Below are positions 7,752 to 16,509 of a stretch of 64,000 nt of DNA, one piece after another. Below the pieces are notes generated by a model. That model was given only the letters and a program-made list of their open reading frames with translations, made no database searches and had not been told where the DNA came from. The DNA is taken from NCBI GenBank assembly GCA_021646405.1, contig SOER01000003.1, forward strand, positions 1 through 64,000, read 5' to 3'. The translations under genes and the position numbers were made by a program. The first letter of the stretch is position 1. Every line of letters starts with the position of its first letter. Source of the stretch: Candidatus Loosdrechtia aerotolerans. GTDB taxonomy: Bacteria > Planctomycetota > Brocadiia > Brocadiales > Brocadiaceae.

Positions 7752-8384
7752 CTAAATAATCCGAATAAAAGGTATGATACGTTCCTTAAGCTTTTTTAAT
7801 GCTTCGGCACGATGACTGATCGTATTCTTAATCGAGGAATGCAATTCCCCGAATGTTTGATGATACTGGAGAACATAGAAAATCGGATCATACCCAAAGC
7901 CTTTATTTCCTCGTGGTTCTTCAGCAATATACCCTTCACAATAACCTTCTACGACCAGGAGTAATTCATAGGGACTGGCAAGTGCAATAGAGCAAACAAA
8001 CCGTGCTGTACGCTTTTCCTTCGGCACCCCTTTTAATTCTGATAATACCTTTCCGATATTTTCTTCGTCAGTAGCATTTGGCCCGGCATATCTTGAGGAA
8101 AAAATACCAGGGCGCCCATTGAGTGCATCAATCTCAAGTCCCGAATCATCTGCTAGTACCCATGTATTGCAAACCTTTGCTAAAGTGGTTGCTTTTTTTA
8201 TTGCATTTTCTTCAAAGGTACTCCCGTTTTCCTCTACAAATGGGAGGAAAGGAAAATCTTCAACATTTTTGAATAAAACCCCGGGAATATTCTTAAGAAT
8301 ATCCAGTATTTCTCTTTTCTTATGTTCATTCTGTGTAGCAATCAGTATAGTCTTTTTATGAATTTCATTTACATTTGACATCAT
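7752..8384 (-). CDS. rdgB: dITP/XTP pyrophosphatase (RdgB/HAM1 family)
   Basis: 210 aa. It removes non-canonical purine nucleotides (dITP, XTP) by hydrolysis to the monophosphate, keeping them out of DNA and RNA. Motifs seen are [13 protein letters not shown] (the N-terminal ATxNxxK variant), [28 protein letters not shown], and GFGYDPIF followed by SHRAEAL. The start overlaps the stop of rph by an ATGA, so translation is coupled. Last gene of the argD-argF-rph-rdgB run. Confidence 0.95.
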
Positions 8385-9106
8385 ATCCCGCTCTCTTCCA
8401 ATACCCTTTTTTGAATTTCAGAAATTTCACGAATACCTTTTTTTGCAACCATTAACATTTCGGCTAATTGCTCGTCAGTAAAGGAATATTCCTCTCCGGT
8501 ACCCTGGATTTCAACAAACTTACCATCGCCGGTCATAACTACATTCATATCTACCTGGGCGGCGGCATCCTCTGCATAACAGAGATCTAAAAGAACAGTA
8601 TTATTCACAATCCCGACGCTCACTGCCCCAAGACTCTGTAAGACAGGGTTTCCGTGAATCATCTCTTTACTCTTCAACCACCGGATAGCATCTACCACTG
8701 CCACATAGCTCCCGGTAATAGCTGCAGTACGCGTACCCCCATCCGCCTGTATAACATCACAATCAATCCAGATGGTCCGCTCCTTTAAGAGGGCAAGATC
8801 TATAATAGTGCGTAAAGAACGACCAATGAGCCGCTGGATTTCATGGGTTCTCCCTATTATTTTTCCCCTCGTAGATTCCCGATGTGTCCTCATCGGCGTA
8901 GAACCCGGCAGCAATGAATATTCTGCAGTAATCCAGCCCTCACCGGTATTCTTAAGATGCGGAGGTACACTTTCTTCCACGGAAGCCGTACAAATAACTT
9001 TCGTATCCCCTGTCCCAATAAGCACGGAACCAGGTGCGTATTTCGTAAAATGCCTTTCTATCGTTATCGGGCGCAATTCATCAGATTTCCGGCTGTCAGC
9101 TCTCAT
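8381..9106 (-). CDS. rph: Ribonuclease PH
   Basis: 241 aa, full length. A phosphorolytic 3'-to-5' exoribonuclease that trims tRNA 3' ends, using phosphate and releasing nucleoside diphosphates. The N-terminus [12 protein letters not shown], the segment [16 protein letters not shown], and the phosphate-site region with [17 protein letters not shown] are characteristic. It begins 4 bases after the argF stop and overlaps rdgB, so it belongs to the same transcript. The rph-rdgB pairing is common in bacteria. Confidence 0.96.
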
Positions 9107-9110
9107 AGTT

Positions 9111-10034
9111 CTATTTCCGCAACAGGAGTTTTAAAAGTGCTTTTTCTACGTGGAGCCTGTTTTCTGCCTGATCATATACAACAGAATGTGGTCCGTCAAT
9201 AATCTCATCGGTTATCTCTTCTCCTCTATGGGCTGGCAGACAGTGCATAACCTTGACATCAGCCCTTGCTACCCTTAAAAGCTTATTGTTAATCTGATAA
9301 TCATGGAACGTTTGCTTCCGCTTCTCCGTCTCCGATTCCTGCCCCATACTGATCCATGTATCTGTGTAAAGTACATGCGCATCCTTTGCAGCCTCTTTTG
9401 GATCCTCATACCTGTGTATCATCTCTTTCCCACCTGACATTTTTACAACCTCAGAAATAAACTCAGGTGTGAGTTCATATCCCGGTGGAGAAGCAACATG
9501 AAAGTGAATATCAAGTTTTGCACAAATTTGTGCGAGGGAACGTGCAACATTATTTCCATCGCCAATAAAGGTTATTTTTATATCTTTAAAAGTATTGAAT
9601 TTTTCCTTAATAGTATAGAGATCACTCAATGCCTGGCATGGATGGAGATAGTCCGTCAGGGCATTAATAACCGGTACCGTGGCGTATCGCGCGAGCTCTT
9701 TTGCCGTATCCTGGTTATAGGTACGAATAGTAATACCATTTACATATCGCGATAATACCTGAGCACCATCTTTTATCGATTCTCTCTTCCCAAGGTTAAT
9801 ATCACTCTGAGTTAAGTAAATGGCATGACCACCAAGCTGCACCATAGCGACTTCAAATGAAACACGCGTACGCATAGAACTTTTTTCAAAAATCATTCCC
9901 AGGGTTTTTCCGGTAAGACACTTTTCATCGTACCCTTTATTATGCCATTCTTTAAGTTCCTTTGTTACGTGAAATATTTCTTCGATATCTGATACCGAAA
10001 GATCAGCAATTGAGAGTAAGTCTTTACACTTCAT
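9111..10034 (-). CDS. argF: Ornithine carbamoyltransferase
   Basis: 307 aa. It makes citrulline from ornithine and carbamoyl phosphate in arginine synthesis. Carbamoyl-phosphate site [10 protein letters not shown] (the STRTR variant), HPCQALSDL, and the ornithine loop [10 protein letters not shown] are intact. I place the start at ATG 10034; an in-frame GTG at 10043 is only about 4 bases from the AGGA and less likely. It follows argD by about 100 bases. argB lies 5.6 kb upstream on the same strand, so three arginine genes are spread through one minus-strand run. Confidence 0.96.
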
Positions 10035-10136
10035 AAATAGCACTTTCCTATAAATTATACCTTCGGCAACTTTTTTTCTTTAACAACAAGACAATGGCAC
10101 TGCATGAACGCCATTCCATGCCTGATTCGAAAATCC

Positions 10137-11324
10137 CTATGCGGAGGTTTTAGAAAGAACTGTTCTTAAAATGTCTATCCCTTCATCTATATGTTCTTTT
10201 CTAACATTGAGCGGGGGCATAAAGCGGATGACTTTATCATGGGTACAATTGAGAAACAGGCCAGCCTGAATACAATTTTTAATAATTTCAGCGCCATTCA
10301 CATTGAGCTCGATGCCAATCATAAGGCCCTTACCACGAATCTCATTGATTATCTCGTAATCCTTTTGCAATATTGTTAATTGTTCCATGGCATATTTACC
10401 CATCTCTTTTACATTATGAATGAGATTCTCCTTTTCAATTGTTTCAAACACTGCAATTCCAGCTGCACATGCTAACGGATTTCCACCAAAAGTAGAAGCA
10501 TGGCTGCCCGGCACAAGGCTTTTGGCAATCTCTTTTTTCGCCGTCATAGCCCCAATAGCGACACCGCCACCAAGTGCCTTTGCCAGTGTCATGATATCCG
10601 GTTCTATATCATAATGCTGATAGGCAAAATACTTGCCGGTCCTTCCCATTCCACATTGTACTTCATCCAGTATGAGCAGTAACCCGTTTTCATTGCAAAG
10701 TGCCCTTACTCCCCGGAGAAAATCCCCGGTAGCACTATTAATCCCCCCCTCACCCTGAATTGGTTCTAACATTATCGCACAGGTCTTATCATCTACTGAT
10801 GTTTCTAATGCCTCTAAATCATTAAAGGGAACATACGTAAAACCTTCAACGAGTGGTGCAAATCCTTTATGATACTTTGGCTGTGCAGTTGCAGTAACTG
10901 TGGCAAGAGTCCTTCCATGGAATGAGTTTGAAAAAGTAAGTATTTTATATTTGCCGGTATTTGAGTTATAGATGCGCGCAAGCTTAATTGCAGCCTCATT
11001 TGCTTCGGCACCACTGTTACAAAAAAAACACTGTCCGCCAAAGGATTTTTCAGATATATATTTCGCCAGTAACCCTTGTGGTTCCGTATAGTAAATATTA
11101 GGAGCATGTTGCAGTATAGCCGCCTGTCGCTGAACGGCCTCAACAACATGAGGATGGCAGTGTCCCAACAGGCTTACCGCCCATCCGGAAAACAGGTCGA
11201 GATAGCGTTTGCCCTCTGTATCCCATACGTCTACACCGCTGCCTCTGCTCAACACAATAGGGTTCCGAATATAATTGGGAATAACATAGCGATCGTAAAT
11301 TTCTTTCATCTCTTCAATATTCAT
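10137..11324 (-). CDS. argD: Acetylornithine aminotransferase (PLP-dependent)
   Basis: 395 aa from ATG 11324; the open frame extends to 11405, but an AGGAGG about 18 bases upstream of 11324 and family length favour the shorter form. A class III aminotransferase transferring the amino group between glutamate and N-acetylglutamate semialdehyde. Visible are the glycine-rich PLP segment CNSGAEANEAAIKLAR, the Asp of LILDEVQCGMGRTG, and the Schiff-base lysine in LAKALGGG. It may also serve in lysine synthesis, as ArgD often does. Confidence 0.94.
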   Translation of the reverse strand: MNIEEMKEIYDRYVIPNYIRNPIVLSRGSGVDVWDTEGKRYLDLFSGWAVSLLGHCHPHVVEAVQRQAAILQHAPNIYYTEPQGLLAKYISEKSFGGQCFFCNSGAEANEAAIKLARIYNSNTGKYKILTFSNSFHGRTLATVTATAQPKYHKGFAPLVEGFTYVPFNDLEALETSVDDKTCAIMLEPIQGEGGINSATGDFLRGVRALCNENGLLLILDEVQCGMGRTGKYFAYQHYDIEPDIMTLAKALGGGVAIGAMTAKKEIAKSLVPGSHASTFGGNPLACAAGIAVFETIEKENLIHNVKEMGKYAMEQLTILQKDYEIINEIRGKGLMIGIELNVNGAEIIKNCIQAGLFLNCTHDKVIRFMPPLNVRKEHIDEGIDILRTVLSKTSA

Positions 11325-11460
11325 AGTTTCTATTCTTTCGTTCCTCCTGAAAATGGGATTGAAGTGGGAATGGGCTTCAAACCCAGGGAAAACAAAATTA
11401 TACAAAATTTATTATAAGATACAACAATTTATCATAAAAATATGCGTAAACAGGTAGAAA

Positions 11461-12462
11461 CTAAAAAGCGCTAAATACGATACTCCCGAAGGCACCAACC
11501 GGGATTTGTTCACGATAACCTTGTACCGTTTCCCTTAAATCATCAACGAGTTTTTTTAATTCCACATACAGTTCATCACTGGTAATCAATTTCGGTAAGG
11601 TGCCCTCCCCCTCTTCTATCCTCTCAAGAATGTTCTTTATACTCTCCGAGGCAGCACTGATGTTTACAAAAACGTCCTTTTCCGTTAAAGGTTGTAATGC
11701 ATCGTTCAACCCCTGTAAGGCCTCTCTCAACTGAGGTCCGATGTCTCCCAGTCCCGCAAGCGCATCACTAATATTCTGCTCATTCTCAGTGAATATCCTT
11801 TGAGCGACATCCGCTGCCGAGGTTATCTTGTTAATGAGTGTCTCATCAGTAATCAATTTACCCAATGTACCTTGTCCTTTGTTGATTTTTTCTGTAATAT
11901 CAAGTGTCGAATCCAGCAATTTATTCAACTGCGGCCCTGCTTCTTCTAACGATTTCCCAACACTTTTCATGGACGCTATAAGCCCTTCGGTATCTTTCAG
12001 CGGTGCTAGTATATTCTGTATTCCTGAGAGCGCATTATCTACCTTGGCCATCATATCGGCAAAGGTCAGTGTCTCAACCGTCTCTATTACATCACCAGGT
12101 TCGTATACAGGACGGGAAACCGGTGCAAGGGTAATATTAACGCGGTTTTCACCTAATAAATACCCGGCAATAATCGAGGCCTTTGATCCTTCCCGGACTG
12201 GAATATCTTCCTTAACGGAGAGAACAACCTTGATCTTATCACCTTCAACAGTAACACTTTTCACATACCCGACCTTTGTGCCTGCCAGCGTAACATCATC
12301 CTCAGCCTTTAACCCCCCCGCTTCATTAAAATAGGCTATAAGATCGTAGTAATCGCCCCACTCAGCAAGTTTCTCTATGCGAAACGTTAAAGCAGCCAGT
12401 ATCGCCATACCAATAATAACGAATATACCTACTTTAATAGCAGATTTCTGTGTTGGTTCCAT
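11461..12462 (-). CDS. mlaD: MCE-domain lipid-transport protein (MlaD family)
   Basis: 333 aa. An N-terminal membrane anchor (VGIFVIIGMAILAALTF) precedes an MCE domain at about residues 35-115 (GLKAEDDVTLAGTKVGYVKS, then LLGENRVNITL). The rest is a long, mostly helical region with repeated ...GTLGKLITDETL and GTLPKLITSDELY units, as in long MlaD relatives. MCE proteins bind phospholipids in the periplasm and pass them between membranes. It lies 50 bases after mlaF. No mlaC or mlaB is found nearby. Confidence 0.92.
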   Translation of the reverse strand: MEPTQKSAIKVGIFVIIGMAILAALTFRIEKLAEWGDYYDLIAYFNEAGGLKAEDDVTLAGTKVGYVKSVTVEGDKIKVVLSVKEDIPVREGSKASIIAGYLLGENRVNITLAPVSRPVYEPGDVIETVETLTFADMMAKVDNALSGIQNILAPLKDTEGLIASMKSVGKSLEEAGPQLNKLLDSTLDITEKINKGQGTLGKLITDETLINKITSAADVAQRIFTENEQNISDALAGLGDIGPQLREALQGLNDALQPLTEKDVFVNISAASESIKNILERIEEGEGTLPKLITSDELYVELKKLVDDLRETVQGYREQIPVGAFGSIVFSAF

Positions 12463-12512
12463 AGCTACTTACCTCCCGAAATAAAGGGTATTACAAGATT
12501 CGCTCTTCAGAT

Positions 12513-13268
12513 TTATATCCCTGCACCTCCGTGCCTGGTAATAAACTGCTTAACAATTTTATTTTCACTCTGCTTGAAAGACTCCGGATCTCCTTCTTCA
12601 ATAATCCTTCCCTGGTAAAGCATGCAAATATGGTCCCCTATATAGAATGCAGATTCCATGTCATGGGTTACCACAACGGAGGTCATTTTAAATTTCTCTT
12701 TTAACTCCAGAATGAGTTCATCGATATTTCCGGCCATAATCGGATCGAGCCCTGAGGTTGGTTCGTCATACAATACAACCTCCGGATCCATAGCAAGCGC
12801 ACGAGCGATTGCAACCCTTTTTTTCATCCCTCCGCTGAGTTCCTCAGGCATACTGTTATATTTTTGTTCCATCTTGACCAGCTTTAACTTCTCCATGGCG
12901 ATTTCATTGATTTGCTTTTTCGGCAACCGGTGCTGTTCTTTCAATCCCAGACCTACATTTTCAGCAACGGTAAGTGAATGTAACAGGGCAGAAGACTGAA
13001 ATACCATAGCAAACCGGTTTCTCAATTTTTCTGCTTCATGGCTGTTTATTGTTGTAACATCCACACCCCGTATGATTATCCTTCCTGAATCAGGTTGCAA
13101 TAATCCCATAATGTGTTTTAACAAAACGCTCTTTCCCGTCCCGCTTCCCCCAATAATCACCGTAGTTTCGGCTCGCCGTATTTCTATATCAACATCTTTC
13201 AATACGTGCAAGCTGTTAAAGGATTTATTGAGCTTCTGTATATCTATTTCAACTTCATTTACATCCAT
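12513..13268 (-). CDS. mlaF: ABC transporter ATP-binding protein MlaF
   Basis: 251 aa from ATG 13268, which overlaps the mlaE end by 10 bases. Walker A GGSGTGKS, signature LSGGMKKR and Walker B VVLYDEPTSGLDP, followed by the switch His in VTHDM, are complete. It powers the MlaE permease in phospholipid movement between inner and outer membrane. A longer frame reaching 13316 would bury the mlaE end and is less likely. Confidence 0.94.
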   Translation of the reverse strand: MDVNEVEIDIQKLNKSFNSLHVLKDVDIEIRRAETTVIIGGSGTGKSVLLKHIMGLLQPDSGRIIIRGVDVTTINSHEAEKLRNRFAMVFQSSALLHSLTVAENVGLGLKEQHRLPKKQINEIAMEKLKLVKMEQKYNSMPEELSGGMKKRVAIARALAMDPEVVLYDEPTSGLDPIMAGNIDELILELKEKFKMTSVVVTHDMESAFYIGDHICMLYQGRIIEEGDPESFKQSENKIVKQFITRHGGAGI

Positions 13269-14029
13269 AACCGTGTAATGAAATAATTTAATATGTATAT
13301 CGAGACAAATGAGCATACAACAGACCTTGTTGTAGCCTCTCCCACACCTGCAGCCCCACCACTTGTCTTCAAACCATACCGGCAGCCCACGATAGCGATA
13401 GTAACACCAAAGACCGCCGCTTTTACAAGCCCTTTAATAATATCAATAACCTCAAGACTTTCCGCCATACGGTCGAAATATATTGTTACAGGAATCTGAA
13501 AATATGCTGTGGTAACTACCGCACCACCTAAAATGCCTACTACGTCTGCATAAACAACCAGGACAGGTAACATAAATAAACAAGCAAGGAACCGGGGCAT
13601 CGCAAGATACCCGATCGGATTAATCCCCAGGGTCTTAAGGGCATCCACCTCCTCTGATACAGTCATAGTACCAATTTCAGCCGTAATTGCAGCCCCAATC
13701 CTGCCTGCAAGTAAAAGCGCCGTGAGTACCGGTCCTAACTCCCTTGCCATAGCAATGGGAACAATAGCCCCGAGTGATTCTGCCATGCCAAATTTTTCAA
13801 GCGTATAACCTGTTTGAAGGACCATGACCATTCCTACAAAGAGCGAGGTAAAACTGGCAATGGGCAGCGTATTTACTCCCATCCTTACCATAAAGTAAAA
13901 AATCTTGTCCAAATTCCGGAGGGCCTGTTTACACCAGTAAAGGGTATGAATAAAGAGTTGAATCAACTCACCTACCAGTTGAAACAGGTTCAGCGAATTT
14001 CTCCCTATATATTCGAGTGGATTTACCAT
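13259..14029 (-). CDS. mlaE: Phospholipid-transport ABC permease MlaE
   Basis: 256 aa integral membrane protein of the MlaE family (PF02405). The central conserved segment MARELGPVLTALLLAGRIGAA and the EIGTMTVSEEVDAL helix are diagnostic. Its first 7 bases overlap the end of the upstream WP-motif protein and its end overlaps mlaF, so the three are probably translated in a chain. With MlaF and MlaD it forms the inner-membrane part of the machine. Confidence 0.94.
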   Translation of the reverse strand: MVNPLEYIGRNSLNLFQLVGELIQLFIHTLYWCKQALRNLDKIFYFMVRMGVNTLPIASFTSLFVGMVMVLQTGYTLEKFGMAESLGAIVPIAMARELGPVLTALLLAGRIGAAITAEIGTMTVSEEVDALKTLGINPIGYLAMPRFLACLFMLPVLVVYADVVGILGGAVVTTAYFQIPVTIYFDRMAESLEVIDIIKGLVKAAVFGVTIAIVGCRYGLKTSGGAAGVGEATTRSVVCSFVSIYILNYFITRLWM

Positions 14030-15495
14030 GAATGAGAGCCCCTTTTTCCTTCAGCCGCAGGGCCTAGGGGTATTTTCAGGAAATGAAATAATCTTATATG
14101 CCGGCCTACTGTGTTTTTTTTGTATGTGAACATATTACCTACAAAGGAAAAATGGATATCTTCTCCACTTCTGTCTTTATAGAGAGAAAAAAGCGGAGCC
14201 ATTTCCAAATAAAAAAACCTCGGGCTGCTTTTCTTATGAAAAAGCCTCCATAGAAAGCGTATCGTTTTCACATCTGTTGTTGTATCATGACTCTGTTTAT
14301 AAAGAGAAAAAAAGGGCCCCCAGTTTCTCTCCCATGGCTCGTCGTGTAACAGCGGATATAAAGAGGGCACTTCTAAACGGGTAGAATGATTAAACTCTTC
14401 TTCCTGCTTAAAGAACGGCCAGACCTGTCTTAAGCCGGCATGTTTCCCCTCTTTTATCAGATATTCATCGCGCTTCCAATACAGTGGTACAAACCGTACC
14501 GTTTTTATTTTCAGAAAGGGACCTGTTCTATAATTAAACGACCAAAAGAAAGGGAACGCAATCGATAGGGTTTCTGAATCGGGAGTACGATTAATCAGCC
14601 AGAACGGGAGGAAGCTATTTTTATATCTCTTTTCACTCTTTATTTTCGATGCAATCGGAAATGGGTAATCCCATCGTTCGTATTCTTCTGTTTTACTCTT
14701 AATGTGATTAAACAGTGGCCAAAGAATTGATCGTGCACGAGATACTGGAGATTTTTCTGAAACATAAAACGGAATCGCTCCCCACCCCTTATACTTTCCA
14801 ACGTTTTTAATATCTGCATGGATATAGGTATAGAATGGCCACATAATAAACCCCTTTTCATATGCTCCTTTTTTCTCGTGTTTCCCATAAAATGGCCAAA
14901 ACTTGTAACCGTACCCGTCACCTTTCACATATTTTGAATAATTAAAGATTGGCCAAACGACATTCCACGCCTTACGATCATCATCTGCTACCATTGTATA
15001 GATAGGCCATAAGACAAACCGTATCGTATTATGACCGAATCTCTCGGAAAACTTTCCATAAAAAGGAAATAGAGCAAAATCCTCTCCGTTGTAATTTCTG
15101 CTGTAGAAAAACGGAAAAACAACAATATCTTTTTCCGGGACATCACTGGTAGTATCTTTTGTATAGGTGTAGAATGGAAAGATTCTCCTGTACCTTCTAT
15201 CTCTGCTGCGTACAGCATAACTGAGTGGCCAGATGATCTCAGACCTTCTGTATTCCTCTGCCGGGATTTTTTTCACGCTATAGACAGGCCTGAAGGATAC
15301 GATACCTGTATCCTTACGCTTTACCGAACTAAAAAAGGGATAGAATACTTCAATTACCTTTTCGCCATTATCCTTATTATAATAAAAAACAGGCCAGAAA
15401 TTTATTTCAGGACTATAATCATCTGCACCAGTGGATGATACCAGGCACAAGAGTATAACCAAGATGATGAAGGAAGGGATGTATCTTTGTGCCAT
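14023..15495 (-). CDS. Exported protein of about 20 W-P-[FLIV]-[FY] repeats, coupled to mlaE
   Basis: 490 aa, not a family I can name. A clear signal peptide (about residues 1-24, cleavage near SSTGA) is followed, almost to the end, by about 20 short repeats built around WPFY, FPFY, WPIF or WPLF, spaced about 20-25 residues. Examples are FWPVFYY, LFPFYGKF, LWPIYTM, FWPFYGKH and MWPFYTYI. Between them are charged turns rich in K, R, D and E. The alternating aromatic strands and polar turns suggest stacked antiparallel beta hairpins, perhaps a barrel or sheet in the outer membrane. It is the first gene of a group with mlaE-mlaF-mlaD, overlapping mlaE by 7 bases. An outer-membrane or periplasmic partner of the lipid transporter is my inference. 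There are no catalytic motifs. Confidence 0.85.
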   Translation of the reverse strand: MAQRYIPSFIILVILLCLVSSTGADDYSPEINFWPVFYYNKDNGEKVIEVFYPFFSSVKRKDTGIVSFRPVYSVKKIPAEEYRRSEIIWPLSYAVRSRDRRYRRIFPFYTYTKDTTSDVPEKDIVVFPFFYSRNYNGEDFALFPFYGKFSERFGHNTIRFVLWPIYTMVADDDRKAWNVVWPIFNYSKYVKGDGYGYKFWPFYGKHEKKGAYEKGFIMWPFYTYIHADIKNVGKYKGWGAIPFYVSEKSPVSRARSILWPLFNHIKSKTEEYERWDYPFPIASKIKSEKRYKNSFLPFWLINRTPDSETLSIAFPFFWSFNYRTGPFLKIKTVRFVPLYWKRDEYLIKEGKHAGLRQVWPFFKQEEEFNHSTRLEVPSLYPLLHDEPWERNWGPFFSLYKQSHDTTTDVKTIRFLWRLFHKKSSPRFFYLEMAPLFSLYKDRSGEDIHFSFVGNMFTYKKNTVGRHIRLFHFLKIPLGPAAEGKRGSHSW

Positions 15496-15621
15496 CCGGA
15501 ACCTTTCTTGAGAGAGTTTTGGTAAAACAAAAAATCAACTTGGTAATTTTTTGGCATTAAAGGCACGAAAATTTCGAAAACCCTGTTCTGTATGAGATGT
15601 ACTGTGTATTGATAAGAAGGT

Positions 15622-16509
15622 TTATACGATAATCTGTGTACCAACACCTTTATCAGTAAAGATCTCCAGCAGAAGGGCATGGGGAATCACCCCGTTGATA
15701 ATGTGTGCTTTTTTTACTCCTGCTTTAACAGCATCAATGCATGCTAATGCCTTAGGAAGCATTCCGTCGCTGATCACCTTTTCCTCAATAAGCGAATGAA
15801 CCTCACTTTCATGTAGTGTGGAAACTAAAGATGTCTCATCGTTTGGCCTTGTCATGATGCCGTGGGTATTCGAGAGAAAAACAAGTTTCTCTGCCTTGAG
15901 TGCACCTGCAATATATACTGCCACATTATCTGCATTAACGTTGTAGATATTTCCATTAACCCCCCGTGCAATAGGCGGAACAATAGGGATAGTACATGAT
16001 CTGCATAAACGGAAAAATGTATCTTTGTTAATCGATGTTACTTTACCTACAAAACCAATATCCAGCTTTTTCAGGGTTCCGTCATCCATTCTTTTTTCAA
16101 TGTAATATTTTTCCGCCTGTATCGGACAGGAACCATTTTCCCAAATACAAGCGGCTTCGTTACCCAGTTCAGAAATCTTCTTTACTATTGACGCACTGAT
16201 CTGATTAACAAGAACATTCCTGGCTATTTCCAGGGTTTCATGATCGGTGATTCTGTGGCCCTCAATAAATTTCGGGCTCAATCCTCTCCTTGCCATCTCC
16301 CGGGTAATATGTGGACCACCCCCGTGAACCAGGACAGGCATAATACCAACAATCTTCATAAATACGATATCCTGAAGTACGTTTGTCAGTACTTCTTCAT
16401 TGGACATTGCACTTCCACCAAATTTGATCACTACAATTTTACCTTTAAAAGATCGAATATAAGGGATCGCCTCAATGAGGATGCCTGCCTTGCGTATAGC
16501 ATTTTCCAT
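15622..16509 (-). CDS. argB: Acetylglutamate kinase
   Basis: 295 aa. It phosphorylates N-acetylglutamate, the second step of arginine synthesis. The amino-acid kinase features are present: VVIKFGGSAM (ATP site), LVHGGGPHI (substrate glycine loop), and NVNADNVAVYIAGALKAEKL. An N-terminal helix before the kinase core (MENAIRKAGILIEAIPYI) is the type associated with arginine-feedback hexameric forms, so end-product control is plausible. It lies 120 bases after ruvC and 126 before the WP-motif gene. Confidence 0.95.
   Translation of the reverse strand: MENAIRKAGILIEAIPYIRSFKGKIVVIKFGGSAMSNEEVLTNVLQDIVFMKIVGIMPVLVHGGGPHITREMARRGLSPKFIEGHRITDHETLEIARNVLVNQISASIVKKISELGNEAACIWENGSCPIQAEKYYIEKRMDDGTLKKLDIGFVGKVTSINKDTFFRLCRSCTIPIVPPIARGVNGNIYNVNADNVAVYIAGALKAEKLVFLSNTHGIMTRPNDETSLVSTLHESEVHSLIEEKVISDGMLPKALACIDAVKAGVKKAHIINGVIPHALLLEIFTDKGVGTQIIV

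Follow-up and report, generated by a model that had tools for sequence, protein, structure and literature searches.

An exported WP-repeat protein encoded with mlaEFD in three bacterial phyla: a candidate fourth component of an MCE lipid transporter

Introduction

How lipid passes between the two membranes of bacteria that lack MlaA and MlaC is a question on which a gene adjoining mlaE in Candidatus Loosdrechtia aerotolerans (Planctomycetota, Brocadiales) bears. According to a 2023 survey, MlaEFD may be used alone by most diderms, and the MlaD of PVC bacteria is reported to have no outer-membrane beta-barrel such as that of Veillonella MlaD (PMC10665443). An earlier survey of MCE gene neighbourhoods treated the Proteobacteria and relied on Pfam domains to name the neighbours (PMC5561183); proteins that no Pfam model covers would thus escape it. 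The gene described here encodes such a protein, called the WP protein. It was first pointed out in an earlier note on the window, i.e., the whole stretch of 64,000 nt analysed (contig SOER01000003.1, positions 1 to 64,000). The question is whether the WP protein is a part of the Mla transporter and, if so, where in the envelope it would act.

The WP-mlaEFD operon

The features of the locus are listed below with their basis.

14023..15495, minus strand: WP protein coding sequence, 490 aa, exported (open reading frame and translation; ATG start)
15424..15495, minus strand: WP signal peptide, residues 1-24, end approximate (predicted helix 5-20, low-confidence linker 23-27)
14059..15396, minus strand: WP-repeat region, residues 34-479, predicted beta-meander of about 45 short strands (motifs, AlphaFold2, proline conservation)
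14023..14029, minus strand: overlap of WP stop and mlaE start, 7 bases, ATGGTAA (sequence)
13259..14029, minus strand: mlaE, MCE-system permease, 256 aa (PF02405, E 1.2e-77; TIGR00056, E 1.3e-73, above its cut-off)
12513..13316, minus strand: mlaF, ABC ATPase, alternative start possible at 13268 (PF00005, ABC_tran, E 3.7e-35; junction sequence)
11461..12462, minus strand: mlaD, long-form MCE protein, 333 aa, conserved hydrophobic C-terminus (PF02470, E 6.9e-16)

The four genes are consecutive in the order WP-mlaE-mlaF-mlaD, all on the minus strand, and the matches to PF02405, PF00005 and PF02470 in consecutive same-strand genes identify an MlaEFD-type MCE transporter. The earlier note's exported 490-aa protein, with its N-terminal signal helix, the gene order and the 7-base overlap are thereby confirmed from the sequence and the Pfam matches. 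An AAAGG ribosome-binding sequence is found 6 nt upstream of the WP ATG. In a scan for promoters and terminators, promoters did not rise above the shuffle level. The translational coupling that had been proposed holds as an overlap in the window, but relatives show a gap of roughly 30-40 bases between WP and mlaE instead of the 7-base overlap, and tight coupling is therefore rejected as a conserved feature.

The operon lies inside what we take to be an arginine cluster on one strand (window positions 7752-16509), with an argB-like gene upstream and argD- and argF-like genes downstream, named by reading the translations. An argB neighbour is also present in the Brocadiales relatives of the locus. 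The MlaD encoded beside WP carries a conserved hydrophobic C-terminal motif of the RE..PI..F...LF.AF type (window 11461-12462; L035-L079, L230-L246), and the MlaD C-termini of the other mla operons of Brocadiales genomes differ from it.

No open reading frame for MlaC or MlaB is found within the operon, as had been stated, but the genome does have MlaC and MlaA at another locus. It contains two further mlaE genes, one as part of a canonical mlaE-F-D-C-A operon whose MlaD is short, 152 aa (L239:3331-6993, G000:C39) and one in a third mlaEFD set (L238:5454-7910, G000:C26). Thus the WP operon is an additional MCE system in this genome, and since mlaE-F-D-C-A is kept, WP is not a simple replacement there.

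Among planctomycete genomes with WP, MlaA is absent in 121 of 138, and MlaC is absent in 11 of the 13 WP-bearing genomes tested. It should be noted that MlaA is found in 17/138 WP-positive and 41/254 WP-negative genomes (Fisher p = 0.37), i.e., there is no anticorrelation, and mutual exclusion is not claimed because genomes without WP lack MlaA about as often. Several planctomycetes (G106, G161, G164, G205, G349, G371, G381, G389 and others) carry the MlaA domain within a 640-980 aa open frame, well above the normal MlaA length, which could be a fusion or merely a long open frame.

A family in three phyla

The window WP protein has no Pfam match at E <= 1 and none in NCBIfam or PDB sequences, and the 128 members of two alignments, A2 and A3, match no Pfam family at E <= 0.01. 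At these same thresholds there is no match to PqiC/MpcA (DUF330), and neither the window protein nor the A2 and A3 members match MlaA (PF04333) or MlaC (PF05494). No family sequence match to AsmA-like or Lpt bridge proteins appeared either, and the predicted fold has no global counterpart in the PDB. Plasmid records showed no WP match. NCBIfam model NF047486 (LA_1737_Cterm) weakly matches 7/64 A3 members (best E 3.4e-5) and 1/64 A2 members; this model is named for a Leptospira locus and has 158 positions, and at E 0.01 it gave no match in five WP-bearing genomes or in controls. The link to Leptospira is regarded as a lead. No function for NF047486 is described in the literature searched, nor was a description of the WP family found there (bioRxiv and most subscription journals lay outside its reach).

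WP proteins were detected in 5/62 Brocadiales genomes with a single-sequence search, in 138/392 planctomycete genomes with a five-sequence profile, and, with a 64-sequence profile, in 97/195 genomes of Verrucomicrobiota and 70/198 of Thermodesulfobacteriota. A2 consists of 63 planctomycete sequences and one from Caldimicrobium, a genome whose phylum we take to be the Thermodesulfobacteriota, and A3 of sequences from that phylum and from the Verrucomicrobiota, as we call the phylum of a Kiritimatiellales genome. The two alignments are collinear from end to end (hhalign E 4e-100, 455 columns). The window protein matches the profile over nearly its full length, has the conserved repeat prolines and carries an export signal. 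Judged by these profile matches, the WP proteins are one large and widespread family in three phyla, unnamed and, in the literature searched, undescribed.

Repeats and predicted fold

About 20 repeats had been counted in the window protein. That number holds only for loose forms of the motif: X-P-[FLIV]-[FYW], with a permissive first residue, has 17 matches against 1.0 expected (2000 shuffles, maximum 5), and hydrophobic-P-hydrophobic has 21 against 5.5 expected in shuffles. The strict form [WF]P[FLIV][FYW] gives only 11 matches (0.3 expected in shuffles). The repeat prolines are mostly 84-100% conserved, up to residue 360.

A2 and A3 have no sequence in common, so they provide two different inputs for AlphaFold2. 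The A2 model (pLDDT 92.9, pTM 0.80) is built of about 45 strands, mainly 5-8 residues long, with a single short helical pair; the A3 model (pLDDT 91.8, pTM 0.81) displays the same strand pattern. In the models the WPFY segment is the turn between strands, hydrophobic from -2 to +2 with the exception of the proline, and the opposite end of each WP hairpin is polar. The models thus back the hairpin-like repeats that had been read from the sequence. A Foldseek search against the PDB returned no global counterpart (TM-score <=0.27, mostly <0.2, among the rows listed), and the partial matches are to propellers, OspA single-layer sheets, teneurin and ApoB100. The predicted WP fold is possibly new.

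Two other structural readings were considered. The predicted structure is a strand meander and not the compact soluble enzyme fold that the earlier note had held to be contrary to a partner role, and an enzyme is rejected. A classical outer-membrane beta-barrel porin is likewise rejected, given predicted strands of mostly 5-8 residues, hydrophobic turns and the absence of an alternating pattern. The C-terminal aromatic residue expected of such porins is present in the window copy as Trp, but its four aligned relatives have Gln, Glu or Pro at that end.

Linkage of WP to mlaEFD

Profiles made from the window's own MlaE, MlaF and MlaD were used to score the DNA around approximately 180 homologues for these three proteins. 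WP is in an mla operon at 167/187 loci (89%), in three phyla and two gene orders, in a sample that took the best-scoring matches first and then middle and lower ranks, and is thus not random. All five Brocadiales loci are linked. In other Planctomycetota mlaE is directly downstream of WP in 90/100 loci; the remainder include one frame shared by WP and mlaE, one truncated mlaE where its contig ends, and a locus at a contig edge that could not be judged, so that 92 of 99 evaluable loci are linked and four of the seven exceptions are from family f33. Verrucomicrobiota show linkage in 36/40 loci, with WP upstream of mlaE in all 36. In Thermodesulfobacteriota 34/43 loci are linked; here WP is mostly downstream of mlaD (30 loci) and upstream of mlaE in four, and the lower-ranked matches are richer in stand-alone copies.

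Stand-alone WP genes are found in family f33 and in Caldimicrobium and relatives, with mlaE elsewhere in the genome where this was checked. All 11 genomes checked that have a non-adjacent WP keep an mlaE, and in two of them (Kiritimatiellales, Lentisphaerae) a second, standard WP copy adjoins that mlaE. Homologues scattered without mlaE, which would have spoken against a partnership, are therefore not the pattern. The adjacency of WP and mlaE in planctomycetes, which the earlier note proposed to check, is seen at most loci and extends to other phyla, but is not strictly universal. The occurrence of two gene orders in distant phyla indicates a functional link between WP and MlaEFD; the proposed partnership is strongly supported by these loci, and WP is very probably a dedicated partner of the transporter.

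Two unusual gene forms were noted. WP-repeat proteins of more than 900 aa with a lipobox-like signal are encoded away from mlaE at L038:9971-12847 and L039:7824-10580, in genomes that also have the standard WP-mlaE pair. In one planctomycete, WP and MlaE are in a single 810-aa open frame (L127:5810-8239), either a fusion or a lost stop codon with an internal MlaE start; an internal start is likely, and the frame is therefore not counted as evidence of fusion.

In Brocadiales, WP is found solely with one mlaE subclass. The closest mlaEFD relatives are those of family f3, with mlaE identities of 59-61% (L085-L093, L230-L237), and no f3 genome has a WP match; at the f3 locus that was fully read (L089), argB abuts mlaE. 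The f3 MlaD has a C-terminus related to that of the WP-linked MlaD. In an MlaE tree f3 groups with the WP-bearing Brocadiales, and one WP-bearing planctomycete branches just outside. This grouping makes loss of WP in f3 the simpler reading, and since the f3 operon persists without WP, the protein is not always required.

Export signal

A lipobox is present in at least 80/100 planctomycete members as found by a simple pattern, and several members negative by script show one by eye. It is present in 22/43 members from Thermodesulfobacteriota and 5/42 verrucomicrobial members. In the window WP protein, as in the relatives from Brocadiales, the signal peptide is an ordinary one with no lipobox. 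Thus membrane anchoring is not general, as the window protein, Brocadiales and most verrucomicrobial copies are without a lipobox. By the +2 sorting rule of E. coli, lipidated proteins without Asp at +2 go to the outer membrane. Asp is found at +2 in 0/107 lipoboxes, and lipidated WP members would go to the outer membrane if the rule holds in these phyla.

Comparison with known systems

The closest analogue in plan is Brucella MpcEFDA. There, too, a single operon encodes a permease, an ATPase, a long MCE needle and an exported lipoprotein, in the order E-F-D-lipoprotein, and the PqiC-like MpcA is stably complexed with the transporter (PMC12436622). Its gene order is that of the commonest WP arrangement in Thermodesulfobacteriota, but differs from that in Planctomycetota and Verrucomicrobiota, where WP is upstream of mlaE, and MpcA is described as a PqiC homologue whereas WP members match no Pfam model. 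PqiC of E. coli PqiABC, an octameric outer-membrane lipoprotein ring, is likewise an exported lipoprotein partner of an MCE needle (PMC10897342). It is however much smaller (soluble construct 17-187, compared with 490 aa for WP), and WP has no Pfam or PDB sequence match. Being a lipoprotein encoded with an MCE protein, the trait shared by PqiC and MpcA, applies to most planctomycete and half of the Thermodesulfobacteriota WP proteins, but not to the window protein, which has no lipobox.

The outer-membrane lipoprotein MlaA (VacJ) and the shuttle MlaC are, like WP, exported partners of MlaEFD, but WP has neither PF04333 nor PF05494, and the true MlaA and MlaC are encoded at the other locus, with a short MlaD. 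Veillonella parvula resembles the WP operon in its MlaEFD core, its elongated MlaD and the absence of MlaA and MlaC from the operon (PMC10665443); there the outer-membrane end is a barrel on MlaD itself, whereas here a separate exported protein is encoded.

Proposed role and alternatives

The association recurs in three phyla and two gene orders, thus WP is probably a fourth part of the pump, on its outer-membrane side. Taken as a whole, the explanation that we favour, and consider somewhat probable, is a trans-envelope MCE lipid transporter in which WP serves as the dedicated fourth component. The MlaE permease, the MlaF ATPase and the long-form MlaD, with its MCE domain and helical needle, would form the inner-membrane pump. 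WP would be exported, and most of its planctomycete relatives would carry a lipid anchor, in all likelihood on the periplasmic side of the outer membrane. At that site WP may receive or cap the distal end of the MlaD needle, passing lipid between needle and outer membrane by way of the long beta-meander edged with hydrophobic WPFY turns. Its job would be that of PqiC, MpcA or MlaA, to which it is unrelated. The export signal, the repeats, the conserved linkage, the planctomycete lipobox and the reproducible predicted fold are established here; contact with MlaD, location at the outer membrane, lipid handling and the direction of transport are what we infer. That WP acts at the outer-membrane end, as do PqiC and MpcA, is rather more probable than not. 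The suggestion that WP replaces the periplasmic bridge or outer-membrane part fits the planctomycete lipoprotein signal, although not as a simple replacement in the window's genome.

The long meander also invites the reading that WP itself is a lipid-conducting bridge across part of the periplasm in AsmA-like or Lpt style, beside or instead of the MlaD needle. In the models some 45 strands follow one another in an unbroken meander whose turns along one edge are fully hydrophobic; a beta sheet has a spacing of about 4.8 angstrom per strand, and a straight sheet of this size would measure about 20 nm. The single-layer OspA sheets and lipid-binding ApoB100 among the partial Foldseek matches are in line with this. 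However MlaD is already long-form in WP operons, the low TM-scores (all <=0.27) speak against it, and the hydrophobic turns could just as well lie inside a compact core. A bridge of this kind is considered unlikely.

Operon linkage alone leaves the site of action in the envelope undefined, and WP could instead be a regulator, assembly factor or stabiliser of MlaEFD on the periplasmic side of the inner membrane, touching neither lipid nor the outer membrane. Copies without a lipobox, that of the window included, could be soluble in the periplasm, and the f3 operon is able to persist without WP. But full-length conservation of a 490-aa beta-repeat protein across three phyla would be unusual for a regulator, and the lack of any lipobox with Asp at +2 argues, by the E. 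coli rule, against retention at the inner membrane; this reading is less probable still. Least probable, and in our view improbable indeed, is a historical linkage, in which WP is a general structural protein of the envelope that has a promoter but no function in common with mlaEFD. The stand-alone copies and long paralogues away from mlaE agree with it, as does the place of the Brocadiales operon among arginine genes, with which no functional tie is expected; against it stands the finding of WP on either side of mlaEFD, across three phyla and at 167/187 loci.

A stronger form, put forward only tentatively and as rather doubtful, is that a widespread family with a new fold serves MlaEFD as a lipid-conducting bridge or as a port in the outer membrane in Planctomycetota, Verrucomicrobiota and Thermodesulfobacteriota; the Mla system of these phyla, supposed to be minimal with three parts, would then be a machine of four. 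Since the MlaD of PVC bacteria is reportedly without an outer-membrane barrel, WP would fill a stated gap, and the family is a concrete and testable candidate for the missing Mla part in three phyla.
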